DNA from: Streptomyces sp. NBC_01803 | GTDB taxonomy: Bacteria > Actinomycetota > Actinomycetes > Streptomycetales > Streptomycetaceae | DNA length: 64,000 nt | Assembly: GCF_035917415.1 (NCBI RefSeq) | Contig: NZ_CP109073.1 | Span: forward strand, 2,201,001-2,265,000 | Reading direction: 5' to 3' | In this document: positions 2,566 through 9,992 of the stretch, one piece after another | Position numbering within the stretch: the stretch's first letter is position 1 | Layout of the letters: each line of letters starts with the position of its first letter | The notes under the pieces: generated by a model | The model's input: the letters and a program-made list of their open reading frames with translations, nothing else | Databases searched by the model: none | Told to the model about the DNA's origin: nothing | Program-made: the position numbers and the translations under genes

Positions 2566-3711
2566 TCAGTCGCTGTACTTGTGACTGTCCAGCGCGGGGT
2601 CGAGGGCCAGCCGGTAGCCGCGCTTGACGACCGTCTGGATGAGCGTGGGCGCGCCGAGCGCCCCGCGCAGCCGGGCCATCGCGGTCTCCACGGCGTGCTC
2701 GTCACGCCCGGCGCCCGGGAGGGCGCGCAGCAGCTCGGCCCGGGGCACGACCCATCCCGGGCGCCGGGCCAGCAGCCGCAGCAGCGCCATCCCGGCCGGG
2801 GGAACGGGCCGCAGCTCGCCGTCCACGATCACGGCGTGGCCGCGGATCTCGATCCGCCGCCCGGCGACCGGCAGCGGCCGGGCCCGCTCCGGCAGCGCGT
2901 GGCACAGCAACTGCACCAACGGGCCGAGCCGGAACCTGTCGGGCTGACAGGTGGGCACGTCGCGGGCCTGCAGCGGCAGCGCGGTGACCGGGCCGACGCA
3001 GGCGGGGAGCACGAATTTCTGCAGGGCGGTCACGACCTGGTCGCACACGCCGCGCTCGTCGGCGCGCTTGAGCAGGGAGGCGGCGGCGGGCGCACTGGTG
3101 AAGGTGAGGGCGTCGACACCCCGGCCGAGGACCGCGTCGATCAGCCGGTCGACCGGGGCAATGTCCTCCGGCGGCATCCACCGGTAGACGGGCACCTCCA
3201 CGACCTCGGCGCCGGCCTCGCGCAGCGCCTCGATGAAGCCGGGCAGCGGCTCGCCGTGCAGTTGGAGGGCGATGCGCCGGTCCGTGACGCCCTGGTCGAG
3301 CAGGCGCTGGAGCACCTCCGCCATGGATTCGGAGGCCGGCGACCACTTCTCGGTGAGCCCGGCGGCGCGGACCGCGCCGCGCACCTTCGGGCCGCGGGCC
3401 AGCAGCTCGGAGCCGGCCAGGGTGGCGAGCAGGCCCTCGCCCAGGCCCCAGCCGTCGGCCGCCTCGACCCAGCCGCGGAAGCCGATCGCCGTGGTGGCGA
3501 CCACGAGGTCGGGCGCGTCGGCGATGAGCGTTCTGGTCGCGGCCAGCAGTTGGTCGTCGTCGGAAAGGGGCACGATGCGCAGCGCCGGCGCGTGCAGCAC
3601 CTCGGCCCCGCGCCGCCGCAGCAGCGCGCCGAGCTCGTCGGCGCGCCGTGCCGCGGTGACACCGACGGTGAACCCGTCGAGTGGCTTGATGTCGCGCTGA
3701 TCCTGACGCAT
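2566..3711 (-). CDS. nnaR: NnaR-type regulator: HemD-like domain fused to an OmpR-type winged helix
   Basis: The product has 381 residues. Residues about 13-265 resemble uroporphyrinogen-III synthase (DGFTVGVTAARRADEL; DALTFTSAPAAASLL). Residues about 285-375 form a transcriptional-regulator C-terminal winged helix (MALLRLLARRPGWVVPRAEL, then VETAMARLRGAL and VVKRGYRL). In Streptomyces this fusion next to narK is NnaR, which works with GlnR to activate nitrate/nitrite assimilation genes; the HemD part is thought to sense rather than make tetrapyrrole. ATG 3711 is chosen because the family begins just before the HemD domain and GGAG lies upstream. A longer open frame to 3948 runs through the intergenic repeats and into narK, so it is rejected. 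The gene follows narK on the same strand. Confidence 0.88.
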   Translation of the reverse strand: MRQDQRDIKPLDGFTVGVTAARRADELGALLRRRGAEVLHAPALRIVPLSDDDQLLAATRTLIADAPDLVVATTAIGFRGWVEAADGWGLGEGLLATLAGSELLARGPKVRGAVRAAGLTEKWSPASESMAEVLQRLLDQGVTDRRIALQLHGEPLPGFIEALREAGAEVVEVPVYRWMPPEDIAPVDRLIDAVLGRGVDALTFTSAPAAASLLKRADERGVCDQVVTALQKFVLPACVGPVTALPLQARDVPTCQPDRFRLGPLVQLLCHALPERARPLPVAGRRIEIRGHAVIVDGELRPVPPAGMALLRLLARRPGWVVPRAELLRALPGAGRDEHAVETAMARLRGALGAPTLIQTVVKRGYRLALDPALDSHKYSD

Positions 3712-3744
3712 GGCGTATCCGCTCCGCCCAAAGTGTTCCGATAC

Positions 3745-3806
3745 GTGAACCGAGCCTGCCAACGGTGCATGACAGGCCCGGTTCACGCTTGTTACTCGCA
3801 AGTTAC
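3745..3806. promoter_or_regulatory. Inverted repeat and GTTAC direct repeats between narK and nnaR
   Basis: Positions 3745-3758 and 3773-3786 form a 14-bp inverted repeat with one mismatch (gtgaaccg-a-gcctg and its complement). Two GTTAC words at 3791-3795 and 3802-3806 repeat with an 11-bp period, the spacing typical of OmpR-type tandem sites. The region lies upstream of nnaR and downstream of narK. It could be a narK terminator, an nnaR operator, or both. No clear T-run follows the hairpin. Confidence 0.45.
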
Positions 3807-3827
3807 ATACGCCTTTGGTGGGCGTTG

Positions 3828-5225
3828 TCACACTCCCGCGTAGGCGGGCTGCTGCTCGGCGCTGCCCTCGGCGGTCGTCTCGTCCGTCACCGCGCGGCTG
3901 GAAATCGCCGAGCGCCGCAGGTATACGGCCCAGGTGATCACGAAACACACCGCGTAGAAGGCGAGGAAGGAGGTGAAGGCTCCGGTGCCCGAGCCGGTGG
4001 AGAGGAAGGACTGCCGGAAGGCCAGGTTGATCCCGAGCCCGCCGAGCGCGCCGACCGCGCCGATCAGACCGATCGCCGCACCGGACAGGCGGCGCCCGTA
4101 CGCGGCGGCCTCCTCACCGGTCAGCCCCAGCGCCTGGGCCTTGGCCCGGTAGATGCCGGGGATCATCTTGTACGTCGAGCCGTTGCCGAGGCCGCTGAGC
4201 ACGAACAGGCTGATGAAGCCGACGAGGAAGACCGGCAACGACTCGGCCATCGAGGCCGCGACCACCACGCCGGTGGCCCCGGCCATGCCCGCGAAGGTGA
4301 ACAGCGTGATCCTCGCGCCGCCGTACTTGTCGGCCCAGTACCCGCCGATGGGCCGGATCAGCGAGCCCAGCAGGGGGCCGATGAAGGTGATCGACGCGGC
4401 CTGCAGCGGGGTGCGGTCGAACTGGTTCTGGAGGACCAGGCCGAAGGCGAAGCTGTAGCCGATGAACGAACCGAAGGTGCCGATGTACAGGAACGACATG
4501 ATCCAGGTGTGGGCGTCCCGCACGGACTCCTTGGCGGCGCCGGTGTCGTTCTTCACCGGGGCCAGGTTGTCCATGTAGCGCCAGGCCAGGAAGGCCGCGA
4601 CCAGGATCAGCGGGGCGTAGGCGGCCAGCAGGACCCGCGGCTCCCCGTCGCCCGCGGTGGCGATGACCAGCAGGCCGGCGAGCTGGACCACGGGAACGCC
4701 GATGTTGCCGCCGCCCGCGTTCAGCCCGAGCGCCCAGCCCTTCTTCCGCAACGGGAAGAAGGCGTTGATGTTGGTCATCGACGAGGCGAAGTTTCCGCCG
4801 CCGACGCCGGTGAGCACGGCGACCAGCATGAAGGTGGTGTACGAGGTGCCGGGCTCCATCACCAGCCAGGCCGCCGCCGTGGGCAGCAGGAGCATCGAGG
4901 CCGACACGACCGTCCAGTTGCGCCCGCCGAACCGGGCCACGGCGAAGGTGTAGGGCACGCGGACGACGGCGCCGACAAGGGTGGCCATGGAGACGAGGAA
5001 GAATTTACCGGCCGGGTCGATGCCGTACTCGGGGCCCATGAAGAGGACGAGCACGGACCACAGGGTCCATATCGAGAAGCCGATGTGCTCGGAGAGGATG
5101 GAGAAGATCAGATTGCGGCGGGCGATGCGCTCGCCCTTCTCCTGCCAGAACCGCTCGTCCTCGGGGTTCCACTCGTCTATCCAGCGGCCCCCTCGTCGGG
5201 CGGCCGTGGGCTTGGGGGCTGTCAT
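3828..5225 (-). CDS. narK: Nitrate/nitrite transporter, major facilitator superfamily
   Basis: The product has 465 residues and about 12 membrane segments, matching NarK-type nitrate/nitrite carriers. An N-terminal cytoplasmic stretch (WNPEDERFWQEKGERIARRN) is typical of actinobacterial NarK. Glycine-rich nitrate-signature segments are visible, GVGGGNFASSM in the first half and LSGLGNGSTYKMIP in the second. ATG 5225 has a strong GATGGAGGCGCC ribosome site. The neighbour nnaR and the GlnR-box match upstream fit nitrogen control. The open frame continues far upstream in another reading of the DUF1015 gene; that extension is not coding. Confidence 0.92.
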   Translation of the reverse strand: MTAPKPTAARRGGRWIDEWNPEDERFWQEKGERIARRNLIFSILSEHIGFSIWTLWSVLVLFMGPEYGIDPAGKFFLVSMATLVGAVVRVPYTFAVARFGGRNWTVVSASMLLLPTAAAWLVMEPGTSYTTFMLVAVLTGVGGGNFASSMTNINAFFPLRKKGWALGLNAGGGNIGVPVVQLAGLLVIATAGDGEPRVLLAAYAPLILVAAFLAWRYMDNLAPVKNDTGAAKESVRDAHTWIMSFLYIGTFGSFIGYSFAFGLVLQNQFDRTPLQAASITFIGPLLGSLIRPIGGYWADKYGGARITLFTFAGMAGATGVVVAASMAESLPVFLVGFISLFVLSGLGNGSTYKMIPGIYRAKAQALGLTGEEAAAYGRRLSGAAIGLIGAVGALGGLGINLAFRQSFLSTGSGTGAFTSFLAFYAVCFVITWAVYLRRSAISSRAVTDETTAEGSAEQQPAYAGV

Positions 5226-5365: not shown

Positions 5366-6403
5366 TCAGCCAGGAAGGCGTCCGATCAGCCCGGGAACGG
5401 GCACCGGGCCGAGACAGGTGCTCTTCGGCGGCATGCCCGCCCCACTGGCCGCGCCCGCCCAGATCTGGTCCCATGTGGGGGGCGGCAGGATGAGCCCGAC
5501 CTCCCCCGGGCCAGGGTACTGGCTGGTGAAGCGGGGTGCCGAGGCGATTCCCTGCTCCTCGCACAGGGTGGGGATGAGCACGTGGTCGCTGATCGCGGCG
5601 GGCAGCTCGACCCAGTCGGGCGGCAGGAACCGCAGCCGTCCGGCCATCGCCGCCGGCGAGATCTCCGACAGTCCCCACGTCTGCCCGCCGCCGGTGAGCA
5701 GGAACGTGCCCGGGCGCGGCGGCGGCGGCCGGTCGTCCACCGGCGACCGTTCGCTCACCCGCGCGATGCGGGCGGCGGTGCGCACGGCCGTGTCGATGTC
5801 CAGGCCGGGCACGACGCGGTGGGTGGCCGACAGGGTCAGCGGGTAGTGCCGGTGGTCGACCACCAGGGCGAGCAGCCGGTCGGCCACCGCGCCCTGGTGG
5901 GCCCGGTGCAGCCGGCGGGCGGCTTCGAGCCGGTGGTGGCCGTCGGCGAGCAGCACCGGCGGCAGCGCGGGCGGGTCGGCGGTCCAGGCCGCGTCGCAGG
6001 CCCACAGCCGCTGCGTGCCGCCCTCGGGGGTGGGCAGCTCCTGGTCGGCCGGGCCCACGGTGGTCTGGTCGATGCACCGCTGGAACGAGCTGAGGTCGGG
6101 CGCGGTCAGCAGCAGCGGCTCGACACTGCCGCCGCGCTCCTTCAACAGCCGGGTGTGGAACCGCACGTCGGACTCGCCGACCTGCTGGTGCCGCAGCACG
6201 TGCCCGGTCTCGACGCCGTTCAGGCTGAGCGCCCCGACGACGCCGCGCTGTTCGACCACACCGTCGGCGTCGCGGCGTTCGAGCACGTAGTAGCTGGGGC
6301 GTCCCAGCGGCTGGGCGAGGACGCCGTGGAAGGGGAGGAACAGATCTGTCCGTGGGGCCGGGGTCCCGGGCGGGACCAACGCGGGGAACAGGTCAGGCGG
6401 CAG
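5366..6403 (-). CDS. DUF1015 family protein (SerK/ParB-like fold)
   Basis: About 345 residues. Diagnostic DUF1015 features are the central LADGHHRLEAARRL motif (family DGHHR) and a C-terminal MPPKST segment. Distant relatives include free-serine kinases of the SerK/SbnI kind, so a small-molecule kinase activity is possible but not shown here. The start is unusual. The best ribosome site (GGAGGAGGAG) lies inside the end of the ATP-grasp gene and points to a CTG at 6403; a TTG at 6379 is the alternative, without a ribosome site. The gene overlaps the ATP-grasp stop by about 11 bases, so the two are probably translationally coupled. It is the last gene of the peptide operon. Confidence 0.75.
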   Translation of the reverse strand: MPPDLFPALVPPGTPAPRTDLFLPFHGVLAQPLGRPSYYVLERRDADGVVEQRGVVGALSLNGVETGHVLRHQQVGESDVRFHTRLLKERGGSVEPLLLTAPDLSSFQRCIDQTTVGPADQELPTPEGGTQRLWACDAAWTADPPALPPVLLADGHHRLEAARRLHRAHQGAVADRLLALVVDHRHYPLTLSATHRVVPGLDIDTAVRTAARIARVSERSPVDDRPPPPRPGTFLLTGGGQTWGLSEISPAAMAGRLRFLPPDWVELPAAISDHVLIPTLCEEQGIASAPRFTSQYPGPGEVGLILPPPTWDQIWAGAASGAGMPPKSTCLGPVPVPGLIGRLPG

Positions 6404-7625
6404 TGTGCTCCTCCTCCTTCGCGGGCACCGGCGCCACCGCCGGGCGCAGGGTGTCCTGGGCCTTGCGGAGCACGGCGTCGAGCTCCTGGGGGCCGTCGGC
6501 CACCGCGGTGACGAAGCCATGCCCGGCGACCCGGCTGGTGGTCTCCGGAACATGGCCGCCGAGCGGAACGGCGATCTCCAGGCCCGTGACGCCCGCCAGC
6601 GCCCGCGCCTCGTCGGCCCCGTCCACGGCCGTCAGCAGGCCGGGCGGCAGCCGCAGGAAGCGGACCCCGGCGTACCGGGTGGCGGCCGGCGCGGCCTCCG
6701 GCTCCGGGAGGCCGAGCACGCTGGCGATCGTCAGGGCGGCGAGATCGGTCCCGCCCGCCATCAGCAGCAGATCACTGATGTGGTCCGCGCCCGGGTGGGC
6801 GTGGGATTCGACGAGCCGGGGGCCGCGCGCGGTGAGGATCACCTCGGTCTGCGAGGGACCGCTGCGCTGACCCGCGGCGTTGAGGGTGGCCGTGACCAGG
6901 TGGTGGATCCGGTCGGTGGTCTCCGCGTCCAGATCGGCCGGCAGGTCGTAGCCGCTCTCCAGGCACCCGGGGGCGCCCGTGGTGTGCTTCCTGGACACCG
7001 CCAGGATCGTGTGCGTTCCGGCGCGGGAGTGCGCCTCGACGCTGAACTCCGGCCCGTCCAGGAACTCCTCGACGATCAGGGCGGGCTCCGGGGCCAACCC
7101 GGCGGCCAGGGCCGTCGCCTCCGCTGTGTCACGCAGCAGATGGACGTCCTGGCCGCCGCACCCCGTGCGTGGCTTGACCACGCAGGGGAAGCCGACGCGC
7201 TCGGCCACGGCGGCCAGCAGCGCGGCGCGGTCGCAGTGCTCGAACCGGACGGGGGTACCGGTGAGCTGGTTGACCTTGCCGCGCAGGGCAGCCTTGTCCG
7301 TCAGGTACGCGACGGCCGCGTGGGGGTTGCCGGGGAAGCGCAGTGCCTCGTTCGCGCGGGCCGCGACGAGCGCGCTGGCCTCGGTGAATCCGAACACGGA
7401 GGCTCGGGTCGGGAGGTTGGTGAGATGCCCGATGGCCATCATCAGCCGGGGGTGGTCCGCCCAGTCGACGGTGAGGGCGTCGTCGGCCACCGCGGCGGCC
7501 TGGCTGATTCCCGGTGCCGACAGGTCAGGAGCGAGCAGGAGACTGCGCGCACCGACCCGTCGAGCCGCGTCGACGACGGTGGGACGCGGACTGAGCAGCA
7601 CCGCCAGCGGCTTCTGGGGCGTCAT
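6393..7625 (-). CDS. ATP-grasp ligase-like enzyme
   Basis: The 410-residue product has the layout of carboxylate-amine (amino-acid or peptide) ligases of the ATP-grasp superfamily. The N-terminal third is a Rossmann-like preATP-grasp domain. CVVKPRTGCGGQDVHLL (K151) is the nucleotide-binding lysine and glycine loop. EEFLDGPEFSVEA follows at 186-198, and TEVIL (E261) with VESHAHPGADHI (E273) is the metal site. The usual Asn of this last motif (E-x-N-x-R) is His275 and the Arg is His277, a visible departure from typical ligases. The substrate is unknown. ATG 7625 has GGGAGGCGG upstream and lies 33 bases after the small peptide gene, so both should share a transcript. Modification or ligation of that peptide is an inference from position. 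Confidence 0.82.
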   Translation of the reverse strand: MTPQKPLAVLLSPRPTVVDAARRVGARSLLLAPDLSAPGISQAAAVADDALTVDWADHPRLMMAIGHLTNLPTRASVFGFTEASALVAARANEALRFPGNPHAAVAYLTDKAALRGKVNQLTGTPVRFEHCDRAALLAAVAERVGFPCVVKPRTGCGGQDVHLLRDTAEATALAAGLAPEPALIVEEFLDGPEFSVEAHSRAGTHTILAVSRKHTTGAPGCLESGYDLPADLDAETTDRIHHLVTATLNAAGQRSGPSQTEVILTARGPRLVESHAHPGADHISDLLLMAGGTDLAALTIASVLGLPEPEAAPAATRYAGVRFLRLPPGLLTAVDGADEARALAGVTGLEIAVPLGGHVPETTSRVAGHGFVTAVADGPQELDAVLRKAQDTLRPAVAPVPAKEEEHTAA

Positions 7626-7658
7626 GGTGCCGCCTCCCTGTCTCGCGGACGCTCCGGC

Positions 7659-7796
7659 TCAGAACCAGATGTTGCTGGTGCCCACGGACTGCGCCCCCGC
7701 GTCCTTCGCCGCGCTCGCGCCCTGGGCGGAGGCGACACCGGCGGACGCCGCCGTGATCAGCAGAGCCGCGACAACGGTGACAGCAAACTTCTTCAC
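7659..7796 (-). CDS. Short secreted peptide precursor ending in NIWF
   Basis: The product has 45 residues with a GTG start at 7796 and AGAGGG seven bases upstream. The N terminus is a textbook Sec signal: KK, a hydrophobic core (FAVTVVAALLITAASAG), then VASA|Q as a likely signal-peptidase site after about residue 24. The mature part would be about 21 residues, small and polar (A, G, S, T, one K, one D), and ends abruptly in the aromatic tail NIWF. There is no cysteine, so it is not a disulfide peptide or lanthipeptide. A longer open frame to 7859 lacks a good ribosome site. It is the first gene of an operon with the ATP-grasp and DUF1015 genes and divergent from two regulators. A signalling peptide or a modified-peptide precursor are the likeliest roles. 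Confidence 0.7.
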   Translation of the reverse strand: MKKFAVTVVAALLITAASAGVASAQGASAAKDAGAQSVGTSNIWF

Positions 7797-7825
7797 GGGT
7801 TCCCTCTTCCGTGTCCACATAGACG

Positions 7826-7842
7826 AACATGAGTGGCATGTT
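7826..7842. promoter_or_regulatory. Inverted repeat AACATG-n5-CATGTT in the divergent promoter region
   Basis: A perfect 6-bp inverted repeat with a 5-bp spacer, lying 30-46 bp upstream of the peptide start and about 115 bp upstream of the first regulator. It is the only clear dyad in this 160-bp divergent region and is a candidate operator for one or both TrmB/LuxR regulators. No -10/-35 pair was convincing. Confidence 0.4.
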
Positions 7843-7956
7843 GGCCCAATCATGCTCACGAGCTTTCACGAGGAAGTCGATAGAGTCGCTGTGGCATCAT
7901 CTCGCCTGTCAGGTTGACGCCAAGGGGCTGGCTGATGTCGTTCAAGGAAGAAGAGC

Positions 7957-8937
7957 GTGCACGAATCCGGCGAAATAGACGCAGCGGTCACCCGAGTTTA
8001 CCGCCTTCGCGTTATCCATCCCACGGACTCCGTGGAGCAGATAGCGGCAAGATCTGGTCTGACCCATGAAGAGGTGGCGGACGCCGAGTCGCGGCTCTTC
8101 ACACTTGGCCTCCTGCGTCCCTCGCCGGGGGGCGGCCGGGTGGCGATCAGCCCCGAGAGCGCCGCCGACGCCCTTCTCGCCCCACTTGAACAGGACATTC
8201 TCCAGCGGCGCATCGCGATGGCGACGACGCGCGCGCGGCTGCACTCGCTCTCCGGTGACTATCTGGAGGCGCGCAGCCTGCGCTCCGCGAAGAGCAGCAT
8301 CGAGGTCGTGGAGGGCATCGACAACATCCGCGCCGTCCTGGACGATCTGGCCCGGACCTGCGTGAAGACCCTTGAGGCACTGGTGCCGGGCCGGTTCCCC
8401 GAGGAGGCTATCCGCGCGGCCACCCCGCTGGATCTGGAGACACTTGAACGTGGTGTGAAGACGCGGCAGCTCTGGCAACAGACCACACGCAAATACTGGG
8501 CGACCGTGCAGTACGCCGAGACGCTGATCGCGGCGGGCGCGCAGGTGCGCACCACCAGCGTGCTGCCCTCGCGAATGCTCATCTACGACCGCAGCTGCGC
8601 GGTGCTGCCGCTCGACCCCATGCACACCGCCGCCGGCGTCGCCCTGGTGCGCGACCCGGCGGTGCTGAGCTTCCTCCAGCAGCTCTTCGAGCACTACTGG
8701 GACCGCGCGCTCGACTTCTCCGAGGAGGACCAGAAGTCCGGGCCCGAGCCGACCGGTGTGGAGCGGGACGTGCTGCTGCTGATGGCGGCGGGCAAGAAGG
8801 ACGAGGCCATCGCCCACCAGCTGGGGATGTCGCCCCGGTCCGTCAGCCGGATCGTGGCCCGGCTGATGGAGCGGCTGAGCGCCGACAGCCGGTTCCAGGC
8901 GGGCGCGCGAGCGGCGCTGAACGGGTGGCTGTCCTGA
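7957..8937 (+). CDS. TrmB-like/LuxR-HTH transcriptional regulator, first paralogue
   Basis: The product has 326 residues. Residues about 9-50 form a TrmB-type winged helix (TRVYRLRVIHP, QIAARSGLTHEEVADAESRL, LGLLRPSPGGGRVAISP). Residues about 70-250 are a mixed region like the PLD-like effector part of this Streptomyces family (MLIYDRSCAVLPLDP; ALVRDPAVLSFLQQLFEHYW). Residues about 265-322 are a LuxR/GerE HTH (DEAIAHQLGMSPRSVSRIVARLMERL). No phosphoacceptor domain or membrane segment is present, so any ligand must be cytoplasmic. The GTG start at 7957 has AAGGAAGAAG upstream. It is divergent from the peptide operon, and its stop overlaps the start of the second paralogue by 13 bases. Confidence 0.85.
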   Translation: MHESGEIDAAVTRVYRLRVIHPTDSVEQIAARSGLTHEEVADAESRLFTLGLLRPSPGGGRVAISPESAADALLAPLEQDILQRRIAMATTRARLHSLSGDYLEARSLRSAKSSIEVVEGIDNIRAVLDDLARTCVKTLEALVPGRFPEEAIRAATPLDLETLERGVKTRQLWQQTTRKYWATVQYAETLIAAGAQVRTTSVLPSRMLIYDRSCAVLPLDPMHTAAGVALVRDPAVLSFLQQLFEHYWDRALDFSEEDQKSGPEPTGVERDVLLLMAAGKKDEAIAHQLGMSPRSVSRIVARLMERLSADSRFQAGARAALNGWLS

Positions 8938-9992
8938 GAGCCTGGGAGCGGGGCGGGCGGAACCGCGACGGCGACGGCGGCGCGGCGGACGGCTCGACCG
9001 CCGTCTTCGAGCTGCTGGAGGACGAGCTGGACGCGGTGGCGGTCCGCGTCTACCAGCTCCGCGTGACGCATCCGACGGACCTGGTCAGCCAGCTCGCGGC
9101 CCGCGCCGGATTCACCGCGGACGAGGTCGCGGAGGCCGAACGCCTGCTCTCCCGGCTCGGTCTGCTCCAGCCCTCCCCGGGCGGCGGCTGGGTCGCCGTC
9201 AGCCCGGAGAGCGCCGCCGAGGGCCTGCTCGCGCCCCTGGAGCAGGACGTCCTCCAGCGGCGCATCGCGATGGCCGCCACCAGGGAGCAGCTGCTCGCGC
9301 TGTCCGGGGAGTACCTGGAGGCGCGCTCGATGCGCTCGGCCAAGACGAGCATCGAGATCGTCGAGGGCCTGGACAACATCCGGGCGGTCATCGACGACCT
9401 CGCCCGCACGTGTGCCGAGTCCCTGGACGCCCTGATCCCGGGCGGTGTGGAGAACGAGGCGGCCGTCGCCGCCGCCAAGCCGCTGGACCTGGAGCTGCTC
9501 TCGCGGGGCGTGCGGATCAGGTCGCTGTTCCAGCACGCGGCCCGCCGGCACCGGGTCATCGTGCAGTACGTCGAGACGATCACCTCGGCGGGCGCCGAGG
9601 TCAGGAGCATCAGCGTGCTGCCGTCGCGGATGCTGATCTACGACGGCGCCTGCGCCCTGCTGCCGCTGGACCCGCTGCACACGTCGGCGGGGGCCGCGCT
9701 GGTGCGCGACCCGGCGGTGCTGAGCTTCCTGTGCCGGCTGTTCGAGCACTGCTGGGGCGAGGGCGTCGAGTTCGCCGAGGCGGAGAGGGAGCGCGACGGG
9801 GCGCCGTCCGGCCTGGAGCGCGAGGTCCTGCTGCAGATGGCGAGCGGCCGGACGAACGAGGAGATCGCCCAGCGGCTCGGCGTCTCACAGCGCTCGGTCA
9901 GCCGGATCGTGGCCGGGCTGATGACGCGGCTGGGCGCGACGAACCGGTTCCAGGCCGGGACGAGGGCGGCGGCGAGCGGGTGGCTGACGTAG
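8925..9992 (+). CDS. TrmB-like/LuxR-HTH transcriptional regulator, second paralogue
   Basis: The product has 355 residues and the same architecture as its upstream neighbour; by eye roughly two thirds of positions match over the aligned length. Shared blocks include LEQD-LQRRIAMA-TR, GEYLEARS-RSAK and VLPSRMLIYD. The C-terminal HTH reads NEEIAQRLGVSQRSVSRIVAGL. About 25 extra N-terminal residues, rich in G and D, precede the first helix. GTG 8925 is read inside the end of the first gene, which suggests coupled translation, but a later start nearer residue 35 cannot be excluded. The pair probably arose by tandem duplication and may form heteromers or split one signal. Confidence 0.82.
   Translation: MAVLRAWERGGRNRDGDGGAADGSTAVFELLEDELDAVAVRVYQLRVTHPTDLVSQLAARAGFTADEVAEAERLLSRLGLLQPSPGGGWVAVSPESAAEGLLAPLEQDVLQRRIAMAATREQLLALSGEYLEARSMRSAKTSIEIVEGLDNIRAVIDDLARTCAESLDALIPGGVENEAAVAAAKPLDLELLSRGVRIRSLFQHAARRHRVIVQYVETITSAGAEVRSISVLPSRMLIYDGACALLPLDPLHTSAGAALVRDPAVLSFLCRLFEHCWGEGVEFAEAERERDGAPSGLEREVLLQMASGRTNEEIAQRLGVSQRSVSRIVAGLMTRLGATNRFQAGTRAAASGWLT

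Follow-up and report, generated by a model that had tools for sequence, protein, structure and literature searches.

A stretch of 64,000 nucleotides from Streptomyces sp. NBC_01803 (contig NZ_CP109073.1, positions 2,201,001 to 2,265,000; source genome of 5.85 Mb in one contig), called the window below and numbered from its own first base, carries a five-gene module that we think probable to be a self-contained peptide-pheromone circuit, in which a tryptophan (Trp) peptide would be read by a regulator combining a TrmB-like winged helix-turn-helix (wHTH), a phospholipase-D-like (PLD-like) domain and a LuxR-type helix-turn-helix (HTH). An earlier note on this DNA had described a compact divergent module, and all five open reading frames (ORFs) indeed lie where it placed them, with a leftward operon (peptide, ATP-grasp ligase and DUF1015 protein) opposite two rightward regulator genes, Reg1 and Reg2:

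5366..6403, minus strand: DUF1015 protein with a predicted free-serine-kinase (SerK/SbnI) fold; start at CTG 6403 or TTG 6379
6393..7625, minus strand: ATP-grasp ligase of the L-amino-acid-ligase type (LAL_C2)
7659..7796, minus strand: 45-residue precursor peptide, putatively exported; GTG start at 7796, stop at 7659-7661; Sec-like signal MKKFAVTVVAALLITAASAGVASA; predicted mature part QGASAAKDAGAQSVGTSNIWF
7662..7676, minus strand: codons of the C-terminal pentapeptide SNIWF, the proposed signal core (presumed role), whose Trp is invariant in seven aligned relatives
7892..7921, no strand: operator candidate between the divergent genes, a conserved near-palindrome TGGCATCATCTCGCCTGTCAGGTTGACGCC
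7957..8937, plus strand: Reg1, the proposed peptide receptor, with predicted TrmB-like wHTH, long helix, PLD-like domain and LuxR (GerE) HTH
8925..9992, plus strand: Reg2, a tandem paralogue of Reg1 (65% identical)

Two of the three spacings given in the earlier note are exact, namely the 33-base gap between the peptide and ATP-grasp genes and the 13-base overlap of Reg1 and Reg2, but the third, an 11-base overlap of the ATP-grasp and DUF1015 genes, is unsure as it hinges on the CTG start at 6403; the TTG start at 6379, which agrees with the 337-residue database copy of the DUF1015 protein, leaves a 13-base gap instead.

We infer export, trimming, import, ligand binding and the direction of regulation as follows. 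The precursor would be exported via its Sec-like signal and trimmed to a C-terminal fragment of about five residues, here near SNIWF, which would re-enter the cell through an oligopeptide importer (the SBP_bac_5 solute-binding family matches at 16 places in the genome, 15 of them above cut-off) and bind the PLD-like domain of Reg1, perhaps also Reg2. Reg1 would then act at the operator candidate and control the peptide/ATP-grasp/DUF1015 operon as well as its own gene.

The precursor, its regulators and their conservation

The peptide gene has 45 codons with a third-position GC content of 0.87, and the 66-residue ORF that contains it matched neither Pfam nor, among the 25 of 32 families listed, NCBIfam. 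An alignment of seven peptides, of the kind the earlier note had proposed along with a check for purifying selection, revealed a common MKKF start, a hydrophobic stretch, an AxA-like site (cleavage was placed by eye) and an invariant Trp second from the end, while the remaining mature part is variable (NIWF, NVWW, NIWA, NTWF, SLWD). The proportion of nonsynonymous differences (pN) lies below that of synonymous differences (pS) in the signal sequence of seven of eight pairs, the eighth pair being without change, and is close to pS in the spacer of most pairs, with the exception of L088-L089 (0.07 versus 0.35; L and G numbers are our handles for loci and genomes). Within the last five residues only the Trp and the Asn/Ser two places before it hold. 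The evidence of selection thus concerns the export signal and these two positions, not a fixed pentapeptide. Judged by its sequence, the peptide gene thus has the traits expected of a signal precursor: it is small, of exported type, adjoins a receptor gene and keeps a short C-terminal motif, whose conservation rests on Trp and a few neighbours.

The description of Reg1 and Reg2 as twin TrmB/LuxR regulators held for the LuxR part, since Pfam calls GerE in both; TrmB was not called by Pfam in either protein at E <= 0.05, and this part of the claim finds its support in the relatives, 8 of 70 aligned ones having a Pfam TrmB call, and in a Foldseek comparison that ranks TrmBL2 at the top for the regulator model. 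The AlphaFold model of Reg1 comprises a TrmB-like wHTH, a PLD-like domain and a LuxR HTH, and on this predicted structure Reg1 is a TrmB-LuxR one-component regulator. The 160-base intergenic region (7797-7956) is strongly conserved among close relatives, as is the near-palindromic element in the shared promoter region, the long pattern of which occurs once in the genome (its core, GCCTGGCA, was seen in the alignments first and counted afterwards). A phage-borne version of the system was rejected, as Reg1 had no match at E <= 1e-5 among 50,697 phage records, and so was a defence system, since scanning the two enzymes and two regulators gave no PADLOC match at E <= 0.01.

Peptide relatives were found at E <= 0.01 in 4 of 394 family genomes, the window's own included, and a protein-word search yielded a single match because the peptide is short and variable; a search by gene context succeeded instead. 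Searching species genomes with the ATP-grasp protein revealed close relatives in Streptomyces sp. SBT349 (78%) and S. zhaozhouensis (73%), and the order of peptide, ATP-grasp, DUF1015 and both regulators is the same in these two and in G373, G098 and G238. In the window, a NarK-family nitrate/nitrite transporter gene sits at 2566-5225 beside a gene for a HemD-like protein fused to an OmpR-type DNA-binding domain, and this synteny with the module is retained in several relatives; both neighbours are absent from the 18-kb stretches of G098 and G238, where the module is therefore located elsewhere. A Reg1 search of 392 genus genomes and the regions fetched with it added all five families in G514, G447 (apparently S. 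zhaozhouensis a second time), G543, G629, G566, G513 and the more distant G507, together with loci of altered gene content. Peptide relatives adjoin the same neighbours in L004-L008 and L128-L133 (L008 and L129 being apparently one locus, counted twice), and independently, among 44 DUF1015 relatives with a listed contig, 20 (counting that of the window itself) apparently share a genome with a listed Reg1 relative; a weak DUF1015 match in L135 lies within a 766-residue ORF and was excluded from the count. On this comparative evidence the module consists of real genes, and other Streptomyces keep all five together as a unit; the co-occurrence that the earlier note had suggested looking for, with peptide relatives beside the same neighbours, is thus borne out. 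Three tandem regulator paralogues (found by tblastn) stand beside a gene for an NYWE peptide in L136 and L137, which suggests ongoing receptor duplication.

Trp peptides beside other regulators of the Reg1 family

Other regulators of the Reg1 family have different signal-peptide-like ORFs with a Trp motif upstream, and by a fixed criterion (signal-like start, 28-120 residues, Trp within the last 14) 53 of 84 upstream regions were positive, versus 9 of 84 downstream regions, 112 of 1241 random stretches from the same loci and 30 of 420 dinucleotide-shuffled stretches. Positives comprised all 21 loci with at least 38.5% identity to Reg1 and 32 of the 63 below. Five positive loci (L007, L008 and L087-L089) had first come up when searching with the ATP-grasp protein or the peptide and do not count as independent; without them the count is 48/79. 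The 78 loci L128-L205 follow nearly the score order of the Reg1 search list, with second tandem copies, G516 (contig end), a second place in G592 and G541 (a near-copy of G301) left out and L139 dropped at a contig end. Newly fetched Streptomyces regulators were positive in 8 of 20 cases, 6 of them with a stricter motif, and the downstream control for these and a newly fetched non-Streptomyces set, pooled, gave 3/29, or 0/29 with the stricter motif. Of 30 plasmid regulators listed (out of 133 records) three were opened, and all three, read by eye rather than by the fixed criterion, also have a Trp peptide, on S. clavuligerus pSCL4 (DLPWT twice), in NBC_00826 (QDDQWG) and in NBC_00012 (GFGW three times). 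The pair of peptide and regulator thus recurs in Streptomyces with differing Trp motifs and differing neighbours, and some clades have the peptide gene on the same strand as the regulator or place it downstream.

Many precursors repeat their motif: VIGWD occurs in up to five copies, SINWD in up to four, VISWD and GIGWD in three each, and DPIWG/DPIWD, NYWE and DLPWT in two each, the final copy often standing at the stop codon and several copies using differing synonymous codons. More than one copy is present in 28 of 63 peptides on a hand-made list, and ORFs repeating an identical Trp 4-mer were counted in 25/84 upstream regions, 4/85 downstream regions (two of these four being IGWD-type peptides) and 182/2276 random stretches. 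Upstream of the L162 regulator the ORF encodes a Trp precursor in which SISWD occurs at least six times, the repeat array containing a masked stretch of N. When motif classes were placed on the regulator tree, 18 changes sufficed, versus a shuffled mean of 51.1 and with a value as low in 0 of 200 shuffles; the labels had been given once the peptides were known, and this statistic therefore describes clustering and is not independent proof. That tree still gave L168, L200 and L202 the label 'none', and the PGWS label of L161 came from the peptide upstream of its second regulator, not of the regulator in the tree.

The two enzymes and clade-specific neighbours

The ATP-grasp protein matches ATP-grasp_4 (PF13535, 1.7e-13) and LAL_C2 (PF18603, 1e-13) above the curated Pfam cut-offs, and its closest solved relatives are L-amino acid ligases, among them BL00235 (PDB 3vot, E 3.9e-15), with which it shares both domains; it differs in being the operon partner of a Trp-peptide gene. 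The altered metal motif reported in the earlier note is real (ESHAH replaces ExN), but it is not distinctive, for BL00235 deviates as well, with EVGAR at the aligned place, and ESHAH is thus not unusual for the L-amino-acid-ligase family. The DUF1015 protein (Pfam E 1.5e-22) had been proposed as a serine-kinase relative, and its model (pLDDT 89.3, pTM 0.87) agrees, as SerK and SbnI, two free serine kinases, lead its listed matches by far, so that a SerK/SbnI-like fold is predicted; it differs from these kinases in its larger size and had no sequence match to any solved structure in the PDB. Because a SerK-like protein is reported to have bound CTP, not ATP (PMC12704722), the fold alone leaves the activity of the DUF1015 protein unfixed. 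From the two enzyme families we infer a serine- or phosphoserine-containing small product, and the circuit's likely output would be a small molecule that the amino-acid ligase and the serine-kinase-fold protein make together, such as a dipeptide derived from serine or phosphoserine.

An ATP-grasp gene lies beside the peptide gene in 17 of 17 surveyed NIWx/fTAW/GNIWD loci, although the enzymes are mutually very divergent, and also at the later-fetched L255, while the window-type ATP-grasp cluster is present in 0 of 40 loci of other Trp-peptide classes between -4 and +5 kb (a set that includes L161, whose class label belongs to its second regulator; L142 has one further off). A 700-bp test had missed the peptide flank in L151, L175, L185 and L187, where the peptide is on the regulator's strand, and in L200 and L202, where it is downstream; the wider -4 to +5 kb test covered all six and found no ATP-grasp gene of the cluster. 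Since the enzymes are clade-restricted and the neighbours vary, the peptide and regulator form the core of the system and the enzymes appear to be a clade-specific output. The ATP-grasp ligase and the DUF1015 protein are accordingly more likely output than obligatory peptide modifiers. The earlier note had let the enzymes act on the peptide or on a small molecule; given the 0/40 count, obligatory modification of the peptide was rejected as a general rule, and a small-molecule output is favoured.

Among the neighbours scanned in the IGWD/INWD clade are a transglycosylase, a tachylectin and an NlpC/P60 match just under the cut-off, and the DDxW clade and its relatives have AfsA-type, phosphopantetheinyl-transferase and polyketide genes nearby, which suggests that DDxW peptides control polyketide clusters. 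AfsA-hotdog genes (one called by Pfam, one annotated, the others called by BLAST clustering) stand beside DDxW-type pairs or regulators of that clade in L143, L145, L146, L147, L163, L183, L203 and L276, and all of these loci except L147 also have 4'-phosphopantetheinyl transferase genes. At least two large proteins of one BLAST cluster are encoded at L152, L154, L181, L182, L190, L198, L201 and L204 (IGWD-type or related clades), and the two that were scanned are a transglycosylase with FG-GAP repeats and a weak NlpC/P60 match, a possible secreted cell-wall output. A survey of 80 ATP-grasp loci also turned up distant Actinomycetota ATP-grasp genes with a TrmB-LuxR-like regulator gene within several kb in L043, L047, L055, L059, L061, L069, L078, L083 and L084, lying just upstream and divergent in L043 and L061; L014 likewise has such a gene within several kb.

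Weighing the circuit against known systems and other readings

RRNPP systems such as Phr-Rap, PapR-PlcR and NprX-NprR combine a small exported precursor, a C-terminal signal and the adjoining gene of a cytoplasmic receptor. The module shares with them the small exported-type precursor with its C-terminal signal beside a receptor gene, as well as the re-import by oligopeptide permease proposed here, but its receptor is modelled as wHTH/PLD-like/LuxR without a tetratricopeptide repeat (TPR) domain; the module would therefore be RRNPP-like in its working, yet not an RRNPP member, from which its Trp-centred motif, the divergent gene pair with a shared conserved element and the Streptomyces host also set it apart. 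In ComX-ComP/ComQ of Bacillus the pheromone is a short peptide that varies among species but keeps a Trp close to its C-terminus. The module resembles it in this, but its peptide has a Sec-like signal and its regulator is a one-component protein; a Pfam scan of eight window ORFs turned up neither a prenyltransferase nor a histidine kinase. From archaeal TrmB and TrmBL2 the module regulators differ by an additional C-terminal LuxR HTH and by their association with Trp-peptide genes.

Several observations weigh against the pheromone circuit. The PLD-like domains of TrmB proteins are known for binding sugars, not peptides; in the last five residues pN is 0.28-0.53 in five of the eight pairs, with at most three synonymous sites and no evident block constraint; and internal repeat copies would need endoproteolysis. 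Of the 84 upstream regions 31 fail the criterion, including those of both distant paralogues in the window's genome (a looser look finds candidates in seven: L204; L162, L177 and L195; L168, L200 and L202, those of L200 and L202 being downstream of the regulator), and 3 of the 53 positives were counted via chance-looking ORFs (L179, L194 and L201, although L179 also has a GYGWG peptide). The newly fetched non-Streptomyces regulators gave only 6/20 positives, four of which we regard as chance, and 2/20 with the stricter motif. Two of the 25 upstream repeat positives (L133 and L147) are unrelated ORFs, the PGWS and DPIW classes cluster weakly (as low in 42/500 and 9/500 shuffles), and the tree statistic is helped by near-copies and by motif classes assigned by eye.

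Another reading, which we think unlikely, is a pathway resembling those of ribosomally synthesized and post-translationally modified peptides (RiPPs), in which the ATP-grasp enzyme, perhaps with the serine-kinase-fold protein, would act in the cytoplasm, either ahead of export or following re-import, to modify or extend the NIWx-type peptide, whose modified form the regulators would sense. The 17/17 association and L255 speak for it, as does the 33-base gap, which makes co-transcription likely, but the 40 loci of other classes do without the enzyme, its closest solved relatives by sequence are L-amino acid ligases, and Sec export ahead of modification would be awkward. Graspetide cores have a repeated Thr/Ser plus Glu/Asp ring motif, which, inspected by eye, is absent from the mature QGASAAKDAGAQSVGTSNIWF and from six relatives, as the earlier note had said of the peptide; the matches of the ATP-grasp protein in the PDB and across all of Pfam (to E 0.05) point to L-amino acid ligases, with no graspetide model tried by name and 25 of 32 NCBIfam families listed, and these comparisons gave no sign of a graspetide.

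It is also improbable that the Trp peptide serves as an effector, exported to act against microbes or at the cell surface, and is itself a target of the regulator, which would then sense something else. The cell-wall-type neighbours of the IGWD/INWD clade, the variable spacer and a pN that is not low in the last five residues would fit this reading; yet the conserved parts are the signal sequence and the surroundings of one, often repeated, Trp, as expected for a short signal, the neighbours change by clade whereas the regulator does not, and the motif classes cluster on the regulator tree. Far less probable is that the small ORF arose as a side effect of conservation in the promoter/operator DNA or acts as a Trp attenuation leader. 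The strong conservation of the intergenic region itself argues in its favour, but the signal peptide is kept at the protein level amid synonymous changes, Trp-motif repeats use differing codons, other clades have their peptide gene downstream of the regulator or on its strand, and a single Trp per repeat is unlike an attenuator; on protein-level conservation, codon differences and varied gene placement we rejected both forms of this reading. The pheromone circuit thus remains the reading we prefer, and the overall interpretation of the earlier note is partly supported.

Cell-cell signalling in Streptomyces is known mainly via gamma-butyrolactones and similar small molecules. A literature search, with preprints excluded and most subscription papers missing, found no description of a Trp-peptide/regulator system or of such a gene set, in line with the earlier note, which knew of none. 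We hold it to be an evenly balanced question whether the module belongs to a genus-wide, diversified Streptomyces peptide-pheromone language, in which one to several Trp-centred signals of 4-6 residues per precursor (NIWF, VIGWD, SINWD, DPIWG, DDQWG, DLPWT and PGWS types) would each have their own TrmB-PLD-LuxR receptor and a private output, here the operon of ligase and serine-kinase-fold protein and elsewhere cell-wall enzymes or AfsA-type polyketide clusters. In such a language the ATP-grasp enzyme of the NIWx clade might tailor the signal as well. If the language exists, a new class of peptide receptor would have been built on TrmB-like and PLD-like domains, and the precursor-receptor code would be readable, such that the inducer of a silent gene cluster could be predicted straight from sequence and tried as a short synthetic peptide, which is cheap to test.

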